A stretch of 64,000 bases of DNA, from positions 61,729,501-61,793,500 of the forward strand of contig JAVUNC010000004.1 of assembly GCA_032173965.1 (NCBI GenBank). Direction: 5' to 3'. Origin of the DNA: Sitta carolinensis (lineage: Eukaryota; Chordata; Aves; Passeriformes; Sittidae). Shown in pieces: positions 34,755-62,882 of the stretch. The position numbers and the translations under genes were made by a program. Every line of letters starts with the position of its first letter. Within the stretch, counting starts at the first letter, position 1. The notes under the pieces were generated by a model. It was not told the origin of the DNA. It searched no databases and worked only from the letters and a program-made list of their open reading frames with translations.

Positions 34755-35375
34755 GCGTGTGAGCCAGGGCAATCTCAAGCACAAACAGAGGCTTGTGAGG
34801 AGAATGGATTGAAAGCAGCCTTGAAGGGAAGGACTCGGAGATGTTGGTGGAAGAAGCAGCCCAGAAAGCAAACCATATCCTGGTTGCATCCAGCTCTGGG
34901 GCCTGCAAGGTAAGGAAAATGTGGACTTGGAGCAAGTCCAAAGGAGGCCCACCAAAACGATCAGAGGGCTGGAGCACCTCTCCTATAAAGGAACTGAGAG
35001 AGCCGGGGTTGTTCATCCTGGAGAGGAGTAGGCTCGGGGGAGTTTCCAGCACCTAAAGGAGGCTGCAAGAGATCTGGACAGGGACTTTTTACAAATGACA
35101 GGAAAATGGCAAATGGTTTTAAACTGAAAGAGATTAAGTTTCATTTAGACATTTAGATATTAGGAAGAAATTTTTTTTTGAGGGTAGTGAGGCACTGGCA
35201 CAGGCTGTCCAGGGAGGTTGTGGATGCCCCATCCTTGGAAGTGCTCCAGGCTAGTACAGATGGGGCTCTGACCAACCTGGTCTAGTGGGAAGTGTCCCTG
35301 CCCATGGCAGGGGGGTTTGGAACCGGGTGATATTTACACTCTCTTCCAATCCAAACCCATTCTATGATTCTATGA
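34755..35375 (+). mobile_element. CR1 LINE fragment (plus orientation, about 620 bp)
   Basis: Contains many CR1 blocks in order: AGAATGGATTGAAAGCAGCC, CATCCAGCTCTGGGGCCTGC, GATCAGAGGGCTGGAGCACC, GGTTGTTCATCCTGGAGA, GGCACTGGCACAGGCTGTCC, ACCTGGTCTAGTGGGAAGTG, and the terminal ATTCTATGATTCTATG. Truncated at the 5' end with several small deletions; it includes the end of the reverse-transcriptase ORF but no intact frame. It lies just left of the first HormR exon and opposite in orientation to the CR1 copy 1.2 kb away. Confidence 0.95.
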
Positions 35376-36464: not shown

Positions 36465-36607
36465 CCACTGGATCAACATCTACAGTATGAAGTTGATAAC
36501 CTTCTTCCATGCTTCGATTATTACTTATGAGCTTCTGTCGAATGTCTTCCTCTTCTAAATTGATGTTGTTGGTAGAATTATAAACCAGAAGAGCCAAAGC
36601 ACTAAAA
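36465..36607 (-). CDS. ADGRG6: ADGRG6 exon: C-terminal half of SEA domain
   Basis: This 143-bp exon encodes residues 323-370. It reads [14 protein letters not shown] near the start and [14 protein letters not shown], then LHTVDVDPV at the end, agreeing with the mammalian ALLVYNATNN and LHTVNV segments. It enters in phase 2 and leaves in phase 1. Acceptor attttccttgcag, donor CCAGTGG/gtaagt. Sequons NST and NRS are present. The intron upstream, about 9 kb, is the largest between two confirmed exons apart from the one that holds the giant reading frame. Confidence 0.95.
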
Positions 36608-44159: not shown

Positions 44160-44357
44160 AAGGAGGGAAGGGAAGGAAGGAAGGGAAGGGAAGGGAAGGG
44201 AAGGGAAGGGAAGGGAGGGAGGAAGGGAAGGGAAGGGAAGGGAAGGAAGGGAAGGAAGGAAGGGAAGGGAAGGGGAAGGGAAGGAGGAAGGGAAGGGAAG
44301 GGAAGGGAAGGGAAGGAAGGGAAGGGAAGGGAAGGGAGGGAAGGAAGGGAAGGGAAA
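44160..44357 (+). repeat. GGGAA/GGAA purine microsatellite (about 195 bp)
   Basis: Nearly pure purine on the plus strand, made of GGGAA units mixed with GGAA and GGGA variants. The polypurine strand means pyrimidines on the transcribed RNA-like strand of ADGRG6. The Lys/Gly/Arg/Glu frames read from it are artefacts of the repeat. Confidence 0.97.
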
Positions 44358-45668: not shown

Positions 45669-45722
45669 CTTTTAATACTTCTTTTTTGTCTTGCTCCCTC
45701 TCTCATAGAAGCAGGGTGGATG
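45669..45722 (-). CDS. ADGRG6: ADGRG6 exon: SEA furin-cleavage segment (RQKR/S)
   Basis: This 54-bp exon, phase 2-2, encodes about 18 residues (305-322) read as SIHPASMREGARQKRSIK plus a split codon. RQKR followed by Ser fits the furin rule R-X-K-R and lies where mammalian ADGRG6 has its furin site (KVKR/S) in the SEA domain. Cleavage there leaves two fragments held together non-covalently. Acceptor tgtttctttcatag, donor TTAAAAG/gtaata. The exon is somewhat shorter than the corresponding human segment. Because it is symmetric, skipping it would keep the frame and remove the site. Confidence 0.88.
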
Positions 45723-45804: not shown

Positions 45805-45857
45805 CTGATATTGACCACATACACAGTGTAATTCCAGTTCTGGAAAGTACGGTTCAG
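45805..45857 (-). CDS. ADGRG6: ADGRG6 exon: SEA domain core strand
   Basis: This 53-bp exon encodes residues 288-304, LNRTFQNWNYTVYVVNI plus two bases of the next codon. It is almost identical to the known ADGRG6 SEA segment. It has two sequons (NRT and NYT). Acceptor cctgtttttcag, donor ATCAG/gtaaat. It enters in phase 0 and leaves in phase 2. The next exon lies only 82 bases away across a very short intron. Confidence 0.95.
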
Positions 45858-47195: not shown

Positions 47196-47281
47196 CCATT
47201 CTGCAACAACATCATGTACTTTCGACACTGAGTTGGGGTTGGAACTAGAGACAACTATAGATATCCTGTAGAATAGGCCAC
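47196..47281 (-). CDS. ADGRG6: ADGRG6 exon: start of SEA domain
   Basis: This 86-bp exon encodes residues 259-287, with GLFYRISIVVSSSNP and ending VVAEW. It matches the first strand and helix of the ADGRG6 SEA domain (mammalian form IIYRISVV, then KVAEW). It enters in phase 1 and leaves in phase 0. Acceptor aatggacag, donor GAATGG/gtaagt. It receives the junction either from the 84-bp linker exon or from the candidate giant exon; both donors leave one base and give an intact codon. Confidence 0.95.
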
Positions 47282-49915
47282 CTGTCCATTAAAAACAGCA
47301 TGATAATGTTAGAAACTGAGCAAATTTAGCTTTTTTATAATGAACCTTCAGCTTCATGATTGATATAAAAATTGTGCTAATACAAGGCCACCTCACACTC
47401 TTGTTGGCATTTAAAGTCTGAAATTAATAAGCCTTGCAGGTTTGGGCCCATTCTCACTAGTCCTATTGATTTTGACAAGAATTCCCTCCCCTTCCATATT
47501 TTCAGAGGCACTTAAAATGTGACATGGAAACTCACAGACAACATGCATCAAAATAGTATTTTGCATATGCCTCTAATGTAGTGTGCAAAATTAAGATCTT
47601 GATAGTGTCAGGAATTTAAAAATTATTATAATTAATGAATTCTGTAAACATGGATAAATTCTGCTCTTAGGCATATTGTTATAATATTGTTATATGCTCC
47701 AGATTATAGTTTAAATATTGTGAGAGCAGATAGAGCTCATCAATTAAAAATAGCAAGGTAACTGAGGAGAGAATTAGGTGTGAGAAAGGATACAGAGCTC
47801 TTGTTTCCAAAGTACAGTCTTGCTCTCAGGCCTGGAATGGCCAGACAGTAGAAGAGCCCATTATTAGCTTTACAAAACTGGCAGCTGAATAAACCATCTT
47901 TCAGTCATGAAATGTGTAACACTTGGCTTGGTGCAATTTTATATTCAGAAAACTGTTTTGAAATGGCACTGAGTAAATATAAATTCTCTTTAAGCTCATG
48001 AGTGGGTAGGCAGCATTACAAGATTTCACATCTAATAAATAACATCAATTCATTTCATAGTTATGCCCTGTCTTAAAAGTCTGTACTTTCCACAAGTCTG
48101 GATTTTTTTCATTAAGCTACTAAACATTCTGTAAGCTCTAGTTGGGTAAAATTTCCCAGGATATGGGGGAGGTTTAAGAACTTCTGGATCAATTCATTTG
48201 CATGTATGTGCATTTGTGGCATTGCCTGGTCTTGGGCTGTTACCCAGGTTGTGGGTCATGCTCACAGATATATGCATTTATATAATCTTATGTAAATCTT
48301 ACAGAGACACTACATAGGACAGAGCAGGACACGACAATAACTGCACAGAAATCCCTTTCTGTTTCTGATTGGAAAGGAACTCTATCTTTTGGAATCTAAA
48401 TAAAAGACCTTTTATTCTAAGTGGAGCAAATGTCATAATTTTACAACTTCATAGATAATTATTGTAGAAGAGCTTGAAATAAAGGCATTTTGAAAAAAAT
48501 TTGAAGTTAGTATTTTCCAAATTAAGTGGGCATGCATTGGTTACTTTTTATGAAATGGTTGTAGTATTGTTCTTTCTTTACAATATGGAATCAATTATAC
48601 GAATATTGAGATTGGCACAAAAATTCATTTATGATAAAACACTAAAGCAGATGGTTTACTAGATGCCTTCTTTGGTAAGCTATGATTGAATTTTTGATAT
48701 GAGCAGAATGAACTTCATTTTAATTTACTATCTTTTTTAACTCTTCTGAGAAGGCACACAAATCTGATGTACAGTTTAATCTGAAAATGTATTTTAATTT
48801 ACTAATACTATGATAGTTTCAAATAAAAAAAATATTTTAAAAAAGTTAAGTCTTTGGAAGAAGAAATTTAGACTTTGGGCTAACTGAAAACACTTGCAAG
48901 ACCTGGATGTCCTTTATATGTATATATCTCTATATAAACACACATTAAATTTTAAATCTATATGTACCTTTTATATGTGCAATACAGATACACATGTACA
49001 GAAAATGTGCATTACATATATTCTCACAAACTCATATATAATTATATATCTAATTATAACCTTATTTAAATAATTATGTATAGTGACAAAAATCACCTTA
49101 ATATAGGTATATGCAAAGTATTTTAAAAATCATGCACAGTAACTATAAACTAGGCAACAGCTTCAAGATCTCCACCAGATGGTGACCCAAAGCGTGTTTT
49201 AATTAGGTTAAAAAAAAGAACAAGAACTAATCTGCGTTTTAAAATACTCTCAGGAGACTGCAGTGGCAGATAGTAAAAACTAAAACCTGTTTATCCCTCT
49301 TCAAATTAAACAGTTGAAATCCCACCTCAAAATGCTGAATAATTTAAAAAAAAAAAAAAAAAGAGTATAACATTGGTGAAAAGTAGCCAAAGAAAAGTTG
49401 AAAAAAATAAGAGGAAAAAATGGCCTGGAAAACAATGCTCCCTACACGCACCACCAACTACAAAAATGTAACCATCAATCTAATGTATTTTTAAAAATTC
49501 TGATAGGAAAATTATCCAAACATTTAGTTTTGAAAAATCTTTTTTTTTGAAAGCGAAATCCTCAAAAATATGTCCGTAAAAAACATTCATACACTCCTGA
49601 ACAATAAATTGTCACCAAATTATATAAAATGCATGAAAACCATTATATTATCCTCACAGTCTCATGAGAGCTGTCTTAGAGAAGTGGAAAAATATTAGAA
49701 ATCACACATTAATGACATTTACTATCACTACAATGTTACAAAATCCCTTCTACTGTAATTATATTATTATTATTATTATAAAGCATCTTCATATGCTAAA
49801 TGGTCCTATGTCTAAAGGAAGAAAGCTACTTCTACATTCAGTCTACAAACTGAATATCTAATAGATAAGATGATCTGGGTTTTTTTTCTACATCTCACTT
49901 AACAGCTTGACATAC
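47282..49915 (-). other. Intron between candidate giant exon and first SEA exon (about 2.6 kb)
   Basis: AT-rich sequence with alternating TA stretches near 48.9-49.1 kb and an A run near 49.35 kb. No exon recognised. If the giant exon is not used, this is part of a longer intron of about 7.1 kb reaching the 84-bp linker exon. Confidence 0.55.
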
Positions 49916-52900
49916 TGTAGTGGAACTCAGGTCGACACAGGCAGCCCAGCTCAGTGAGGGAGTCACACAAACAAGGCAAAAGGACTGCAGCAGAGTTAGT
50001 AAGTTGTTTCAGCGGTGGGTAAGAGGTGCTGTTTTTGCTTGTCCCAGATGGTAAATTGGCCAAGGAATAAACATGGGCTGAGACTGATGATTGATGGTAT
50101 GTCACAGAAGAAAGGGATGTTTGGATCTGCGTGAAAGAGTGATGGATGGCTGCTGCAGCTGCTGTCAGAGTGCCTGTCAAGATGGTCTCTTTGTGCTGAA
50201 TAAAATCTTTGCTAGATGAAGATGGCAAAGGTACCACATCATTCATTACTACAGTTCTTGATGACTCCAGAACAGAAGAGAGATTTGCAAAATGTCCATA
50301 ATCAGCATGTTCAAAATTGAAGGCATTAGCAGTAATGATAGACATTGCTTCTCTGTTCCTGCTAAACGATCCATACACCTCCCCTTCTGAGTTCCACTGA
50401 GAAAGCCTCGGTATGTTTGTTGATGTCAGAACAGCAAAATCCCTAATGTCTATATTACTGTCAATGATTTCTTGTTCAACTGCCCAGAGAGAGTATCTTG
50501 GACCGTCCACTTGATTTTCAATGGAGTTTTGTCCTGAAACAGTTAGATAATTTCTTGGTGTTTCTGTTGTTGGCAAGTTTAACTCTCCTACATCCCACTG
50601 AGGCAGCAGGCTTGGAGAAATTGTATCAAGGAGGTTTTGAAAACTTTGTGGGAGTGGAGGTGTGGAATAGCTTTTAGGAGGTACACTGTCTCTGAATTTG
50701 GACTCTGAATGAAGTAGTTGCCTTAATTCCAAAGATACTGGAAGAAAGCCAGAACTCATTGAATTGATGCTTTTTAAAAAAACACCTGCATCTTTTTGAA
50801 CTTTACTTCTTGGTTTATCAATGGTATTTGTTATAGCATCATTGTCCAGAAGACTTTGAGACTGTGGCATTCTGTGTGTTCTTGTACTGCTTATCAAACT
50901 CTTAACTATGCAAGTAACCTCAGCCCCAGGTGTACTCATCAAGAAAGGAGCTTGGCTGTTCCTTGAACAAGAAGGCTGGCTTCCTGAACTTGTTGGAAAG
51001 ACAGAAACAGACTGATGCCTACTGTTTAGGAAGGTCATGTCAGTTTGATCACTCAATGTGTCAGTTCGAATCTGCATGTGCAAATTATCTGCAGAGCTTT
51101 CAAGTACCTGATCAAAAGGGCTTACCTGTGCCCATACAGGAGATTCAATGTAAGGTGCTTCCAGCGAAGGGAAAGGAAAATCAAAATAAAATTCACTGCT
51201 GGAAGACACAGTTAGGTTTGCAAAGTTCATTGTTGACTGCAATTGTGATATTGACCTGTCATTACTTTCTGAAATTCTCTTTGAAATGCCTGGAATAAAT
51301 GAACTTAAGATTTGTGTTTCCAAAGTTGATACATGACTAGAAAAATTAATTTCTTCAGCACTGTGACCTAAAAATCTAATGGCAGATGTTTGTTCAGAGA
51401 TACTGTCAGCATATAAACTAATGGACAGCAATCTCTCTGTTGGGGAAGAAAGCAGTTTATTAAATGAGAGCCAGAAATTTTCTGATGGCTCCCCCGAAAA
51501 CACTTGCGATGCTTCTTTCAAATGATGGGAAACAGTCCAGAAACTTGCTCTTAAAGAGGGGGAAATATCTACATATTTTGTTGGAAAATCTAAGTAATCT
51601 GAGTCCCAGGAGTCAGCAACTGGATTCGTGTTCTCTGGCTCTAATATGGAAAAAGCTGACTTTTCATTTTCATTACTACCATGAAATGCATCTAAGTTAT
51701 TCTCCAGTGCTCCATTTATGAGGGTCTCACTTGGGTTTTGAAAGTGTAATGAAGGCTGTAAATAGTGAGACCAGTAATTGCTATTAGATATAAATATGTT
51801 GTCACTTTTCAAATATGTGTCAGTCAACAGCTGTTGATAAACAGGCAGGGTTGTTGCAACATGCTTAAATGCTGAGCTTGTCCAGCCTGGTTCTACCAGA
51901 AATGCTGAAAACATTGATAGTTCTCTTCTGTGTCCTTGGACTGAATTTGTCAATTGGCTGTCACGCATAAATTTCGTGTATGTTTTCTTCATGTTCTGAA
52001 AAGAACTTGTTGGTTTTGCATGTAGAATCTCCACAGAGGTTAATTTTGAAATGCTTCCTGAGTGATGTTCCTTAATGTGCATAGATTTTGTAAACTGAAA
52101 TGCACTGTTTGCTGTTAGCGTAGAAAATGTTTTCCTGTCAGCATTGCCTTCTATCATTTCCAGGTAAAAATTTTCAAGTGCCAAATTTAGCAAATCTAAC
52201 CTACTTTTTGGGAATGGTTTCTCATCTATAGGTGAAACAGCCAAGCCAGAAAGAAAATGATGTCTGTCTACTTGAATGTCAGAGGTGATATGATGATGAA
52301 ATGCAGGCTCATTCCACCAGTTCACAGGCTCCAAGACATTGCTTGTATGCATGAAATTGCTTGTGTCGCTGTTGGAGAATGAAATCCACAGAGTTTCTTT
52401 TTTGTGTTTGTAAGCAGTGCTGCTGCTCCTGCTGCTGCTAACGGGAGAGCGGAACGCTGGCTCAGAGTCAGAAAGATGGAGCCTACTGGCCAAAGTCCTT
52501 GCCAGCTCTGCATTGGGATTTCTGCTGTGAAGAAGAGGAACTGCTGCGTTCACAGGAGGCTCTGTAAGCGCATCTGCTGCACCAGAATTACCACGGAATG
52601 GACTTCTGGAATAATTTAAAATATTTTCATTTGGCAACTGATTCATTACAGTATTATCTAGGTTGATGTTTTCTGTAAAAGCAGACAAGGTTTTGTTGAC
52701 GGTCTCCTCAGAAGGAGTTGGTGTGGACAAAGTCAGAAGGAACAAGCTGTATGGGTTTTCTCTTTCTGGGTTATCATCTGCTGAATTTTTACTGAAACGC
52801 AGAGGCCTTTGCTTCACTGGCCAAATAATTGGGGTTGAAATAATTCCTATTGTTTTGATCCCTTCTATCCTAGATTCTTGCTGCCACTGTGGTCGTGAAT

Positions 52901-52939
52901 GGGAAAATTCAGGTGAATTTCTCTTCATTCTGAAGATAA
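49916..52939 (-). CDS. ADGRG6: Candidate giant serine-rich cassette exon of ADGRG6 (about 1,008 codons)
   Basis: A single minus-strand frame is open from about 52982 to a TAA at 49899-49901, far longer than any other frame in this AT-rich window. The product is serine-rich with Thr and Pro, has at least six N-glycosylation sequons (NKT, NYS, NFS, NLT, NLS, NST) and no obvious transmembrane segment. Cysteines are rare until a cluster near the end (LPCLCDS, GCLCRP). Two acceptors give phase 1: cttcctgctgcag (right end 52939, used here) and ctacacacag (right end 52969). A phase-1 donor, TACA/gtatgt, precedes the stop. With these sites it fits in frame between the 84-bp linker exon and the first SEA exon, giving HYSGLFYRIS across the junction. 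A stronger-looking donor (gtgaga) follows the TAA directly and would instead end the protein. ADGRG4 has a giant Ser/Thr-rich exon in the same domain position. I see that the frame is open and the phases fit; that it is an expressed exon is inference. Confidence 0.72.
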
Positions 52940-54429
52940 CTGCAGCAGGAAGTCTGAATTCCTGCAGGTCTGTGTGTAGCAAGCCACATAGTTAATGGAC
53001 TAAAGAAAATAGATGTAACTTAACTCGCTGTTCTTGGCTGTCTGTTCTTTGTCTAAAGATCAACTTACCAAGAGTGGAAAATGATGCCCATTAGCTCAGT
53101 GAAAGTTTAATTTGCTTCTACCATAAGCAAACTTGGCTTATTTTTATAGCTTTTCTACTTTTTCTTGGGACATTCAAAGCTAGAGAAAGGACATAATTGT
53201 CCAATTTTAATTCATACTAACATTAATAAGATTTAGTTCATTCTGTCATTTAAAAAAATCAGAGTTAACTGCTCATGGTGAACATTTGTGAGTGGCTCCA
53301 CAAAAAGGAAGCAAACACTACTTGGAAGAAATTTTCAGTATTTTCTTCTTACTTCTACAGCTTATTAAAACCAAACAGTCTGGATTCAGATAAATTCTTT
53401 CACATTGTGTACTGTACTGCCTGATTGCCAGTGTACAATAAATGATCTGCCAAGAGAAAAAATACTCCAAGAGTTTTAAATCCTACAGTAACAACTGATG
53501 GATTGGGGGAAAAAAACACCTAACCAAAAAAAAGCAGCCTAAAAACCAAACCACAAACCCCACCCAGATTCTAATTTATTTCTGTGGAGTACACTGAAAA
53601 AAATAAATCTTTTAAAAAATATACATTTAAGTCTGTGATGAAAATTGGCAAAATCTATTTCCATGTTTAACAACCAGCTTTAACAAACTAATAAATATTT
53701 TAGCAGCACTTCACAAAATGATGCTCAGTCTTTAGGAGACAGTGATATCACAGAATTTGAAAAAGCCTCAAAAGAAATCCTGGCTTTATTCCTGTGCTAA
53801 TAATAGGTTCATTTAGTAGCTTATTTTTTCCCTTAATCTTTCTAAATGAAAAGTAAACGATATCTGATACTGTCAACATTTTCCCTAGTAAAGTCTGATC
53901 CAGCTCTTCTTTAAGTCAGTGGAAAGATTTCTGTTGACTCAGTGGAAGTGTCTTTGCTCCACAGGAATGGTTCCACTTGGCTCCTGTGCCTGAGGAATGG
54001 CAAGGAGCTAGTAAGGAATAGACAATCCAAGCCTATCACCAGCCTGGCTGCACAAGTGGGAGCTACACAGTGTCTGACAATCTGCAGCCATGAAACACTT
54101 CAACAGCACGGCTCTTTTCAGACCTGTTCCAAAAATCCCTCTCCCTTCCCTTGTTCTTTGTGTTGTTAAATGCAATGGGTGACATCAAGTTAGTCCCTTT
54201 CACAGAAGAGCCAGGTAAATGCAAAGCAAATAAACCCTGAGTTTGGTTCTATTCTCATTTGCACCATTCTGACATGGCCCAGAGATTTAGCCCTGATTTA
54301 TTCAGTGTAAATGAGATCAGAACTGAGATATGACCCTTGACATTATGATGGTAGGAAAAACACACCTTAAAATACAACAAATTTGCTTTAGACACAGTAC
54401 AAGGAAAAATGTAACACAGGATTTCTTAC
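52940..54429 (-). other. Intron between candidate giant exon and 84-bp linker exon (about 1.5 kb)
   Basis: No exon seen. Just upstream of the giant frame lies a strong-looking acceptor (tctattttctttag, AG ending near 53008). Its use in phase 1 meets a TAA almost at once, so it does not serve as the in-frame acceptor. Confidence 0.5.
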
Positions 54430-54513
54430 CATTGTTTGGCTTATCGTTTCTATTAGTATCGGGCATGTTAGTGGTGACAGTGGGTGGTGTAGGAGTAGTA
54501 GCATTTACAGTAG
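54430..54513 (-). CDS. ADGRG6: ADGRG6 exon: Thr/Pro-rich linker (84 bp, alternatively spliced in other species)
   Basis: This exon encodes residues 231-258, beginning ATVNATTPTPPTVTTNM and ending DKPNNG. The Thr/Pro-rich sequence matches the ADGRG6 stalk segment TVTTNMP. Length 84 bp, phase 1-1, acceptor ttattaccag, donor AACAATG/gtaaga. The human gene has an optional exon of the same size in this place, and skipping here would also keep the frame. The segment likely carries O-glycans, and there is one NAT sequon. It lies directly upstream of the intron holding the giant serine-rich reading frame. Confidence 0.94.
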
Positions 54514-57624: not shown

Positions 57625-57693
57625 CTTGGCAAAGGCTTCCTAGGTTTGCACAACTGGTTGGTTCAATTGAAGAAGAGGGAATTAGATATGAGC
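57625..57693 (-). CDS. ADGRG6: ADGRG6 exon: linker after PTX (69 bp, symmetric phase 1-1)
   Basis: This exon encodes residues 208-230, reading GSYLIPSSSIEPTSC then ANLGSLCQ, close to the ADGRG6 segment that follows NLSCG in mammals. The acceptor is tcctttaaag and the donor is TGCCAAG/gtaaga. It starts and ends in phase 1, so including or skipping it keeps the frame. It forms the first part of the flexible linker between the PTX and SEA domains and contains two cysteines, which probably pair with each other or with the PTX domain. Confidence 0.94.
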
Positions 57694-59034: not shown

Positions 59035-59530
59035 ACTGCACAGCATCAATTGCAGCCAAGAGAGGAGTGAGAATGTGTGGGAGCAAAATCCCACAGACAC
59101 CAAGGCCAGTGAGGAAGGAGGGGCAGGAGGTGCTCCAGGTGCCTGAGCTCAGATTCCCCTGCAGCCCATGGGGAAGCAGCTGTGCCCCTGCAGACCCTGG
59201 AGATCCATGGTGGAGCAGAGACCCACTGCAGTCCCTGGAGATCCATGGTGGAGCACAGACCCACCTGCAGCCCCTGGAGATCCATGGTGGGGCGCAGATC
59301 CACCTGCAGCCCCTGGAGATCCATGGTGGGGCGCAGATCCACCTGCAGCCCCTGGAGGACCACATGCTAGAGCAAGTGAATGCCTGAAGGAGGCTGTTAC
59401 CCCAGGAAAGCTGGCCCTGGAAAAGACTCCTGGCAGGACTTGTGGACCCGTGAAGACAGGAGCTCATTCTGGAGGAGGTTTGCTGACAGGACTTGTGACA
59501 CCACTAACCTGGTGGTTACAGACACAGTGT
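59035..59530 (+). mobile_element. Probable avian LTR-like dispersed repeat with internal minisatellite
   Basis: GC-rich block resembling, from memory, avian dispersed repeats of LTR/ERV type, with phrases such as GCAGCCCATGGGGAAGC, CTGGCAGGACTTGTGGACCC and GAGGAGGTTTGCTGACAGGA. No flanking target duplication, retroviral gene or partner LTR was seen, so a solo LTR or other fragment is likely and the class is uncertain. Frames on both strands here follow the repeat and are not genes. Confidence 0.45.
59195..59361 (+). repeat. Minisatellite, about 4 copies of a 39-bp unit
   Basis: The phrase CTGGAGATCCATGGTGG recurs four times about 39 bases apart, followed each time by a variant of AGCACAGACCCACCTGCAGC. 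The last two full copies are almost identical and a partial copy ends the array. Because 39 is divisible by 3, all frames stay open and give repeated peptides. Confidence 0.9.
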
Positions 59531-62261: not shown

Positions 62262-62882
62262 CACAACTCAAATTGTTTTCTGCTTTCAGTGCTGAAGTTG
62301 GAATACTCCAGAATTCATTTTCCCAGTCTACAATGTTTCCTTTCACATCACAGCTGAGGTTGGCCAGTGTTTGTGCATTCATGGTGAAATTCCAGAGGCG
62401 GAAGTTGTAAATGTCCCCATTTAGAGAGCTCACTTCATTGCTGTTAGAGCCCAGCATCAGCCTCCCATTTCCAGGGATAACTTTGTCAAAGACCTCTGGA
62501 CAGTCCACCAAATGATAGGTGCTTTTGGCATATACACCTATAGTGCCTGAGAAGCTATCCCATACAACACACAGCTGTTGAAAGGTTCCTGTGAAAAACT
62601 CTGCATTTCGGGGCAATGCATTCTTAAGGATGCACTGCGTGCCTGAGATGGACAGAAAATGGCCTTTTGTGGTCTTCCCGAAGCTGAAGAGCTCTCTCAA
62701 CAATGCATCAGTGTAGGAGAAAACCTTCCAGTCATCGTTGTCATCGCTGCTGCCCTTGGTTGCTTCAAAGCACAGTGTAAACTGTCTCAGCTCTGGCACT
62801 GAGACTGTCTCTGCCACAGACACAGCATCGATGTCAGGAACCTGGGGAATGATGACTTTCTGATTCCTCAGAGACACGGCAA
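62262..62882 (-). CDS. ADGRG6: ADGRG6 exon: pentraxin (PTX/laminin-G-like) domain
   Basis: This 621-bp exon encodes residues 1-207 of the in-window protein, phase 1 at both ends. The acceptor is ttgattctag and the donor is TTGTG/gtgagt. The translation has the PTX features of ADGRG6: FTLCFEATK, a cysteine in [15 protein letters not shown] followed by GTIGVY, the strand motif [13 protein letters not shown], and [11 protein letters not shown] near the end, closing with NLSCG. Sequons NFT and two NLS suggest N-glycosylation in the ectodomain. The domain follows CUB in the full receptor and is extracellular. In-frame TTG and CTG codons upstream are intronic and not a start, so translation begins in exons outside the window. 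Confidence 0.96.

Follow-up and report, generated by a model that had tools for sequence, protein, structure and literature searches.

In ADGRG4 (GPR112), an adhesion receptor, the stalk is encoded by a single exon. The available portion of PMC10687090 terms residues 279-2244 of the human protein mucin-like, and the corresponding portion of PMC2987804 describes a region of more than 1,500 residues of extended coil that is present in mammals and absent from zebrafish GPR112. ADGRG6 (GPR126) has a far shorter Ser/Thr-rich linker, exon 6 (+ss / S1), which is alternatively spliced in human and zebrafish according to the accessible text of PMC6954182; in zebrafish, inclusion of this 23-residue exon disturbs the closed ectodomain and alters signaling (accessible text of PMC6954182 and PMC11475505). 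Here we describe a giant open reading frame inside the ADGRG6 gene of the bird Sitta carolinensis, whose product senses matrix and force, in a stretch of 64,000 nucleotides (nt) of contig JAVUNC010000004.1 (assembly GCA_032173965.1, positions 61,729,501 to 61,793,500), hereafter the window. The reading that we propose as most likely makes the frame a coding exon of this gene, probably a cassette used in some transcripts and spliced from exon 6 to the first SEA exon. Its coordinates and those of the surrounding exons are collected in Table 1.

A first-pass annotation of the window had picked out a stop-free frame with 52982 as its upper limit and judged it improbable by chance. The frame exists, that position lying three codons inside its start, and the judgement is borne out. 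With 1,030 codons it is the longest of the 35 frames of at least 100 codons in the window; the runner-up, of 237 codons, surrounds the ADGRG6 pentraxin (PTX) exon. In 100 sequences of 64 kb simulated from an order-2 Markov model trained on the window, the longest frame did not exceed 209 codons, and with a model trained on the giant frame itself (again 100 sequences of 64 kb) it did not exceed 290. The product of the proposed exon is serine-rich and holds six Cys.

The frame has coding statistics along its whole length, beyond the mere lack of stops. These are single-sequence statistics, judged against a null of 500 simulated sequences of intron-like order-2 composition that were themselves without in-frame stops, so that the absence of stops earns the giant frame no credit; training of the codon score drew on known exons of ADGRG6, 955 codons in all. 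The codon-position chi-square of the giant frame is 70.0, against a null mean of 12.9 and maximum of 36.8, and its mean codon score is -0.022, against a null mean of -0.130 (standard deviation 0.014, maximum -0.089). As a control from real DNA, the ADGRG6 introns were joined and cut into 51 overlapping intron windows of 3,024 nt: chi-square values reached at most 13.7, and codon scores at most -0.047 in the 153 sense window-frames and -0.053 in the 153 antisense ones. When the frame is divided into thirds, the codon score of every third is matched by none of the 500 null runs, and the chi-square by 5, 0 and 2 of them, respectively. No null run matches the codon score of the first 100 codons or that of the last 100; the score of the 100 codons directly upstream of the frame is matched by 369 of 500. 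Toward the 3' end, the last 70 codons of the proposed exon (50126-49917) are matched by 2 of 500. Compared with 200 null sequences, the product is enriched in Ser (z 7.0), Asp (z 5.1) and Glu (z 4.5) and depleted in Cys (z -6.5).

The gene in the window is ADGRG6. With a human ADGRG6 sequence as the query, tblastn recovered 18 exons, whole or in part, with expectation values (E) from 1.9e-77 (PTX) to 0.49 (first SEA exon). The identity was confirmed with the protein joined from PTX to SEA: the zebrafish Gpr126 ectodomain (6v55) gave E 1.7e-45, the match falling into a PTX-linker stretch and a SEA stretch, and ADGRG4 gave E 5.9e-9. The first-pass annotation had placed the frame on the coding strand of this gene, between linker and SEA exons, with phase 1-1 splice sites matching both neighbors. 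Both statements hold: the frame has exon 6 (54513-54430) on its 5' side and, on its 3' side, the first SEA exon (47281-47196), and the two acceptors it had named, for starts at 52939 and 52969, as well as the donor at 49916, are of phase 1. From either start, a transcript that runs through exon 5, exon 6, the giant exon and into SEA stays free of stops, and the reading frame survives if exon 6 or the giant exon is left out. Splice sites were scored with a consensus table rather than with a trained model, and compared with 11 known acceptors and 10 known donors of ADGRG6, two further donors being left out. On this scale the acceptor for 52939 scores 6.1 and that for the in-frame alternative 52969 scores 4.3, beside 5.0-14.9 for the known acceptors. 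The donor at 49916 is the sole phase-1 donor scoring at least 2 in the last ~870 nt of the frame. Sites with such scores are frequent, the minus strand of the window holding 405 donors of at least 3.4 and 338 acceptors of at least 6.1.

Several observations weigh against assigning the frame to an ADGRG6 exon. At 3.4, the donor at 49916 lies under all known donors (5.5-12.3), and stronger ones, both of phase 0, occur at 49899 (TAA/GTGAGA, 5.3) and 51126 (CAG/GTAAGC, 12.3); the acceptor for a start at 52999 (5.4) brings in an in-frame stop. The first-pass annotation had named neither this acceptor, nor the low score of its donor, nor the internal donor at 51126. Eleven of 12 known exons outscore the giant frame in codon usage when scored by leave-one-out (range -0.030 to 0.158), one frame on the opposite strand of this stretch scores -0.032, near the sense value, and 9 of 447 short (600-nt) intron window-frames reach the score of the frame. 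GC content at fourfold sites is 0.249 in the giant exon against 0.451 in the other ADGRG6 exons, with 0.329 in the flanking introns. Published descriptions of ADGRG6 include no domain of this kind; in its accessible text, PMC2987804 says of the long domain of GPR112 that it 'is not present in GPR126'.

The internal donor at 51126, one of eight minus-strand donors in the window scoring at least 12, leads to a stop if spliced to the first SEA exon. Use of this donor together with the acceptor preceding 50126 (9.4) would excise 999 nt (51125-50127) in frame. This stretch is a possible internal, exitron-like intron, though it itself scores as coding: the codon score of its 333 codons is matched by none of the 500 null runs. 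The splice anatomy as a whole suggests that the giant exon is weak and included under regulation, as a cassette, and not constitutively.

How else might the frame be read? It could be coding and yet serve as an alternative last exon of ADGRG6, ending at the TAA (49901-49899) and followed by a downstream poly(A) site. This would give a soluble CUB-PTX-stalk protein without the SEA, GAIN and seven-transmembrane (7TM) parts, or lead to nonsense-mediated decay if the transcript were spliced after the stop. Codon usage does stay coding-like until the frame closes, the donor on the 3' side is weak, and ATTAAA hexamers lie downstream at 49203, 48798, 48780 and 48724, with an AATAAA at 48416. Hexamers like ATTAAA are, however, frequent in AT-rich DNA, and a phase-1 donor lies only 17 nt short of the point where the frame closes, a span in which about 0.04 would be expected from the density of the 405 donors in 64 kb, one third in each phase. 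We consider this alternative improbable.

Somewhat harder to sustain is a relic, in which an ancestral giant stalk exon recently lost its splicing in this species and its frame has yet to decay. The weak donor, the rival acceptor that brings in a stop and the strong out-of-phase internal donor are what such a loss might leave behind. In a simulation of neutral decay under assumed rates (CpG weight 6; 0.1 indels per substitution, 80% of them frame-shifting), however, the median copy of the frame broke at 0.002 substitutions per site, and 99% had broken by 0.013. Such a rapid break means that the frame is constrained now or was so until recently, and a loss of splicing would have to be very young, which leaves a relic quite improbable.

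A search of the bird's own genome (1.03 Gb in 252 contigs) and of the window found no second copy of the giant frame, leaving a recent retrocopy without a visible source; together with the fourfold-site and flanking-intron GC values, this gives no sign of a recent insertion. Viral contigs and prokaryote genomes held no relative of the frame, as expected for vertebrate DNA. A tblastn match of its last part to contig C9 (17935-18087, E 0.042) was taken as chance. A nested origin of the frame, as a gene of its own or as a retrocopy within the intron, is highly improbable: a single long intronless frame would suit it, as would the ATG (52928-52926, MKRNSPEF) at codon 22 of the whole stop-free frame, but no other copy or source was found in the genome, the composition is at the local AT level, no direct repeat longer than 9 was found between the flanks searched, and database matches, detailed below, amount to none in Pfam and one at chance level in the PDB.

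With the frame read as a coding exon of ADGRG6, what kind of protein segment would it add? The product has no Pfam match up to E 10 and no internal repeats at E 1, and Rfam gave no match at the gathering score; a DnaJ homolog, the one PDB row (E 2.2), was rejected as a chance-level match. AlphaFold2, run without an alignment, returned a mean predicted local distance difference test score of 31.7, with none of 1,027 residues reaching 50. This absence of a predicted fold fits disorder and does not show it. The first-pass annotation had read the frame as a stalk exon and called the stalk mucin-like and glycosylatable. Coding statistics throughout, location in ADGRG6 and phase fit favor the exon; the two labels are weak. 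Ser makes up 15.7%, Thr 7.1% and Pro 6.3% of the product (Ser+Thr 22.8%), without the dense Ser/Thr/Pro (S/T/P) of a mucin-like (PTS) domain. S/T/P density peaks at 37 per 100 residues, whereas the ADGRG2 exon described below reaches 53, and the six N-sequons compare with a mean of 14.2 in shuffles of the same residues, only 0.35% of 2,000 shuffles being as low. With so few N-sequons and so low an S/T/P density, the name 'mucin-like' is not earned. Near the end of the exon, beside SEA, lies a Cys cluster, CLCDSLTELGCLC (49973-49935, minus strand), which holds four of the six Cys and resembles, by eye, the Cys pair of the exon 5 linker.

We infer the splicing, cassette use, disorder, glycosylation and mechanics of the stalk as parts of the following model. 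Inclusion of the exon would separate the CUB-PTX tip of the receptor from its SEA-HormR-GAIN-7TM portion by ~1,008 residues that are serine-rich, cysteine-poor and probably disordered. The insert would move the tip away from HormR, and a compact, closed ectodomain would then be unable to hold. The insert would act as a long tether, with a contour length of ~0.4 micrometre at 4 Å per residue (the per-residue figure is from the available part of PMC10687090), so that the tip could bind matrix far from the membrane while pulling on SEA and GAIN. Because the furin-type motif lies below the insert, cleavage there would release CUB, PTX and stalk as a single piece under force.

Table 1. Proposed giant exon, its splice sites, and exons of ADGRG6 and ADGRG2 (window positions unless a contig or stretch is named; a slash in a motif marks the splice or cleavage point)
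Feature	Position	Strand	Details
Whole stop-free frame	52991..49899	minus	1,030 codons, then TAA at 49901-49899 (inside span)
Proposed giant exon	49916..52939	minus	3,024 nt = 1,008 codons; phase 1-1
Acceptor AG for preferred exon start 52939	52940..52941	minus	score 6.1
Donor GT, ACA/GTATGT	49914..49915	minus	phase 1; weak, score 3.4
Internal donor CAG/GTAAGC	51124..51125	minus	score 12.3; phase 0; strongest in 53100-49800
ADGRG6 CUB exon	L002:4810-4487		within the next 10 kb of the contig
ADGRG6 PTX exon	62262..62882	minus	donor phase 1; 6v55 E 1.3e-33
ADGRG6 exon 5, linker with Cys pair SCANLGSLC	57625..57693	minus	phase 1-1
ADGRG6 exon 6	54430..54513	minus	28 residues; phase 1-1; placed by eye, not by tblastn
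First SEA exon	47196..47281	minus	5' phase 1; tblastn E 0.49
Second SEA exon	45805..45857	minus	
SEA exon with furin-type motif RQKR/S	45669..45722	minus	placed by eye; consensus from the available text of PMC6954182
Last SEA exon	36465..36607	minus	
ADGRG2 Ser/Thr/Pro-rich exon	C1:100520335-100521023	minus	689 nt, 229 residues, 46% S/T/P; bounds set on AG/GT
ADGRG2 PTX exon	C1:100543691-100544194		225-codon frame; E 1.4e-14 to human ADGRG4 PTX fragment

The introns of ADGRG6 hold some repeats. A minisatellite at 59166-59357 (4.9 copies of 39-bp units) lies between the PTX exon and exon 5, and about 40 copies of AGGGA occupy 44164-44356. Near the HormR exon, at 35206-35230 on the plus strand, a 25-mer with one mismatch resembles a CR1-like 3' motif, which, like the genome size, is in keeping with a bird.

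The first-pass annotation had likened the frame to a giant Ser/Thr-rich exon of ADGRG4 in the same place. The long stalk of that receptor is documented in the accessible parts of PMC10687090 and PMC2987804; in this genome, no giant exon was found in the presumed ADGRG4. A 7TM exon of the latter, with 67% identity, was located at C9:24255, so that only 24 kb separate it from the beginning of this 20-Mb contig; it is closest to ADGRG4 by only 2-3 bits over ADGRG6 and ADGRG2. The interval C9:1-39700 contains no PTX match and no frame longer than 228 codons, and the genome-wide listing of 18 pentraxin-type matches has no entry on contig C9; the assembly may lack the N-terminal part of the presumed ADGRG4, or the gene may have lost it. 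The published ADGRG4, as far as its available descriptions go, shares with our proposal a very long stalk between an N-terminal PTX and SEA/HRM. The stalk described here differs in residing in ADGRG6, in being about half as long and in not being dense in Thr and Pro.

A second comparison, which counts in favor of the proposed exon, is offered by ADGRG2 of the same genome, a gene on contig C1 whose 7TM exon matches ADGRG2 with E 6.1e-54 versus 5.0e-40 for ADGRG4. Like the giant exon, its Ser/Thr/Pro-rich exon is one large exon located after PTX and before the GAIN/7TM part, and it also ends in phase 1. Unlike the giant exon, it encodes only 229 residues, has 46% S/T/P (29% in the giant exon) and starts in phase 2. 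With phases 2-1 it is not simply the counterpart of the giant exon, and the similarity between the two is weak and of low complexity (best E 0.031 without composition correction). The PTX-bearing adhesion receptors named in the available text of PMC10687090 are ADGRD1, ADGRD2, ADGRG4 and ADGRG6; the PTX exon of ADGRG2 in this genome goes beyond that list.

More tentatively, we speculate that bird ADGRG6 exists in a compact and a long-tether form, set by a cassette exon of ~1,000 disordered residues above the furin-cut SEA domain, with removal of the in-frame 999-nt internal intron yielding a third, shorter stalk, and that ADGRG2, ADGRG4 and ADGRG6 have large stalk exons in common as a module whose size has changed repeatedly; on present evidence this is a possibility that we would still bet against. 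A tether of ~1,000 residues in one lineage, at a place where a 23-residue insert already alters conformation and signaling, would provide a natural test of how tether length bears on the response to force, and the model of this receptor on which chick embryology relies would change. Our full-text searches on ADGRG6/GPR126 and its stalk, in a library without most subscription journals, turned up no such exon in the passages listed. Exon 6 is another close known system: judging from the published text available, this Ser/Thr-rich linker is subject to alternative splicing and occupies the junction where the giant exon would be inserted. It differs in size, with 23-28 residues versus ~1,008, and in this bird the two exons are adjacent, both of phase 1-1.

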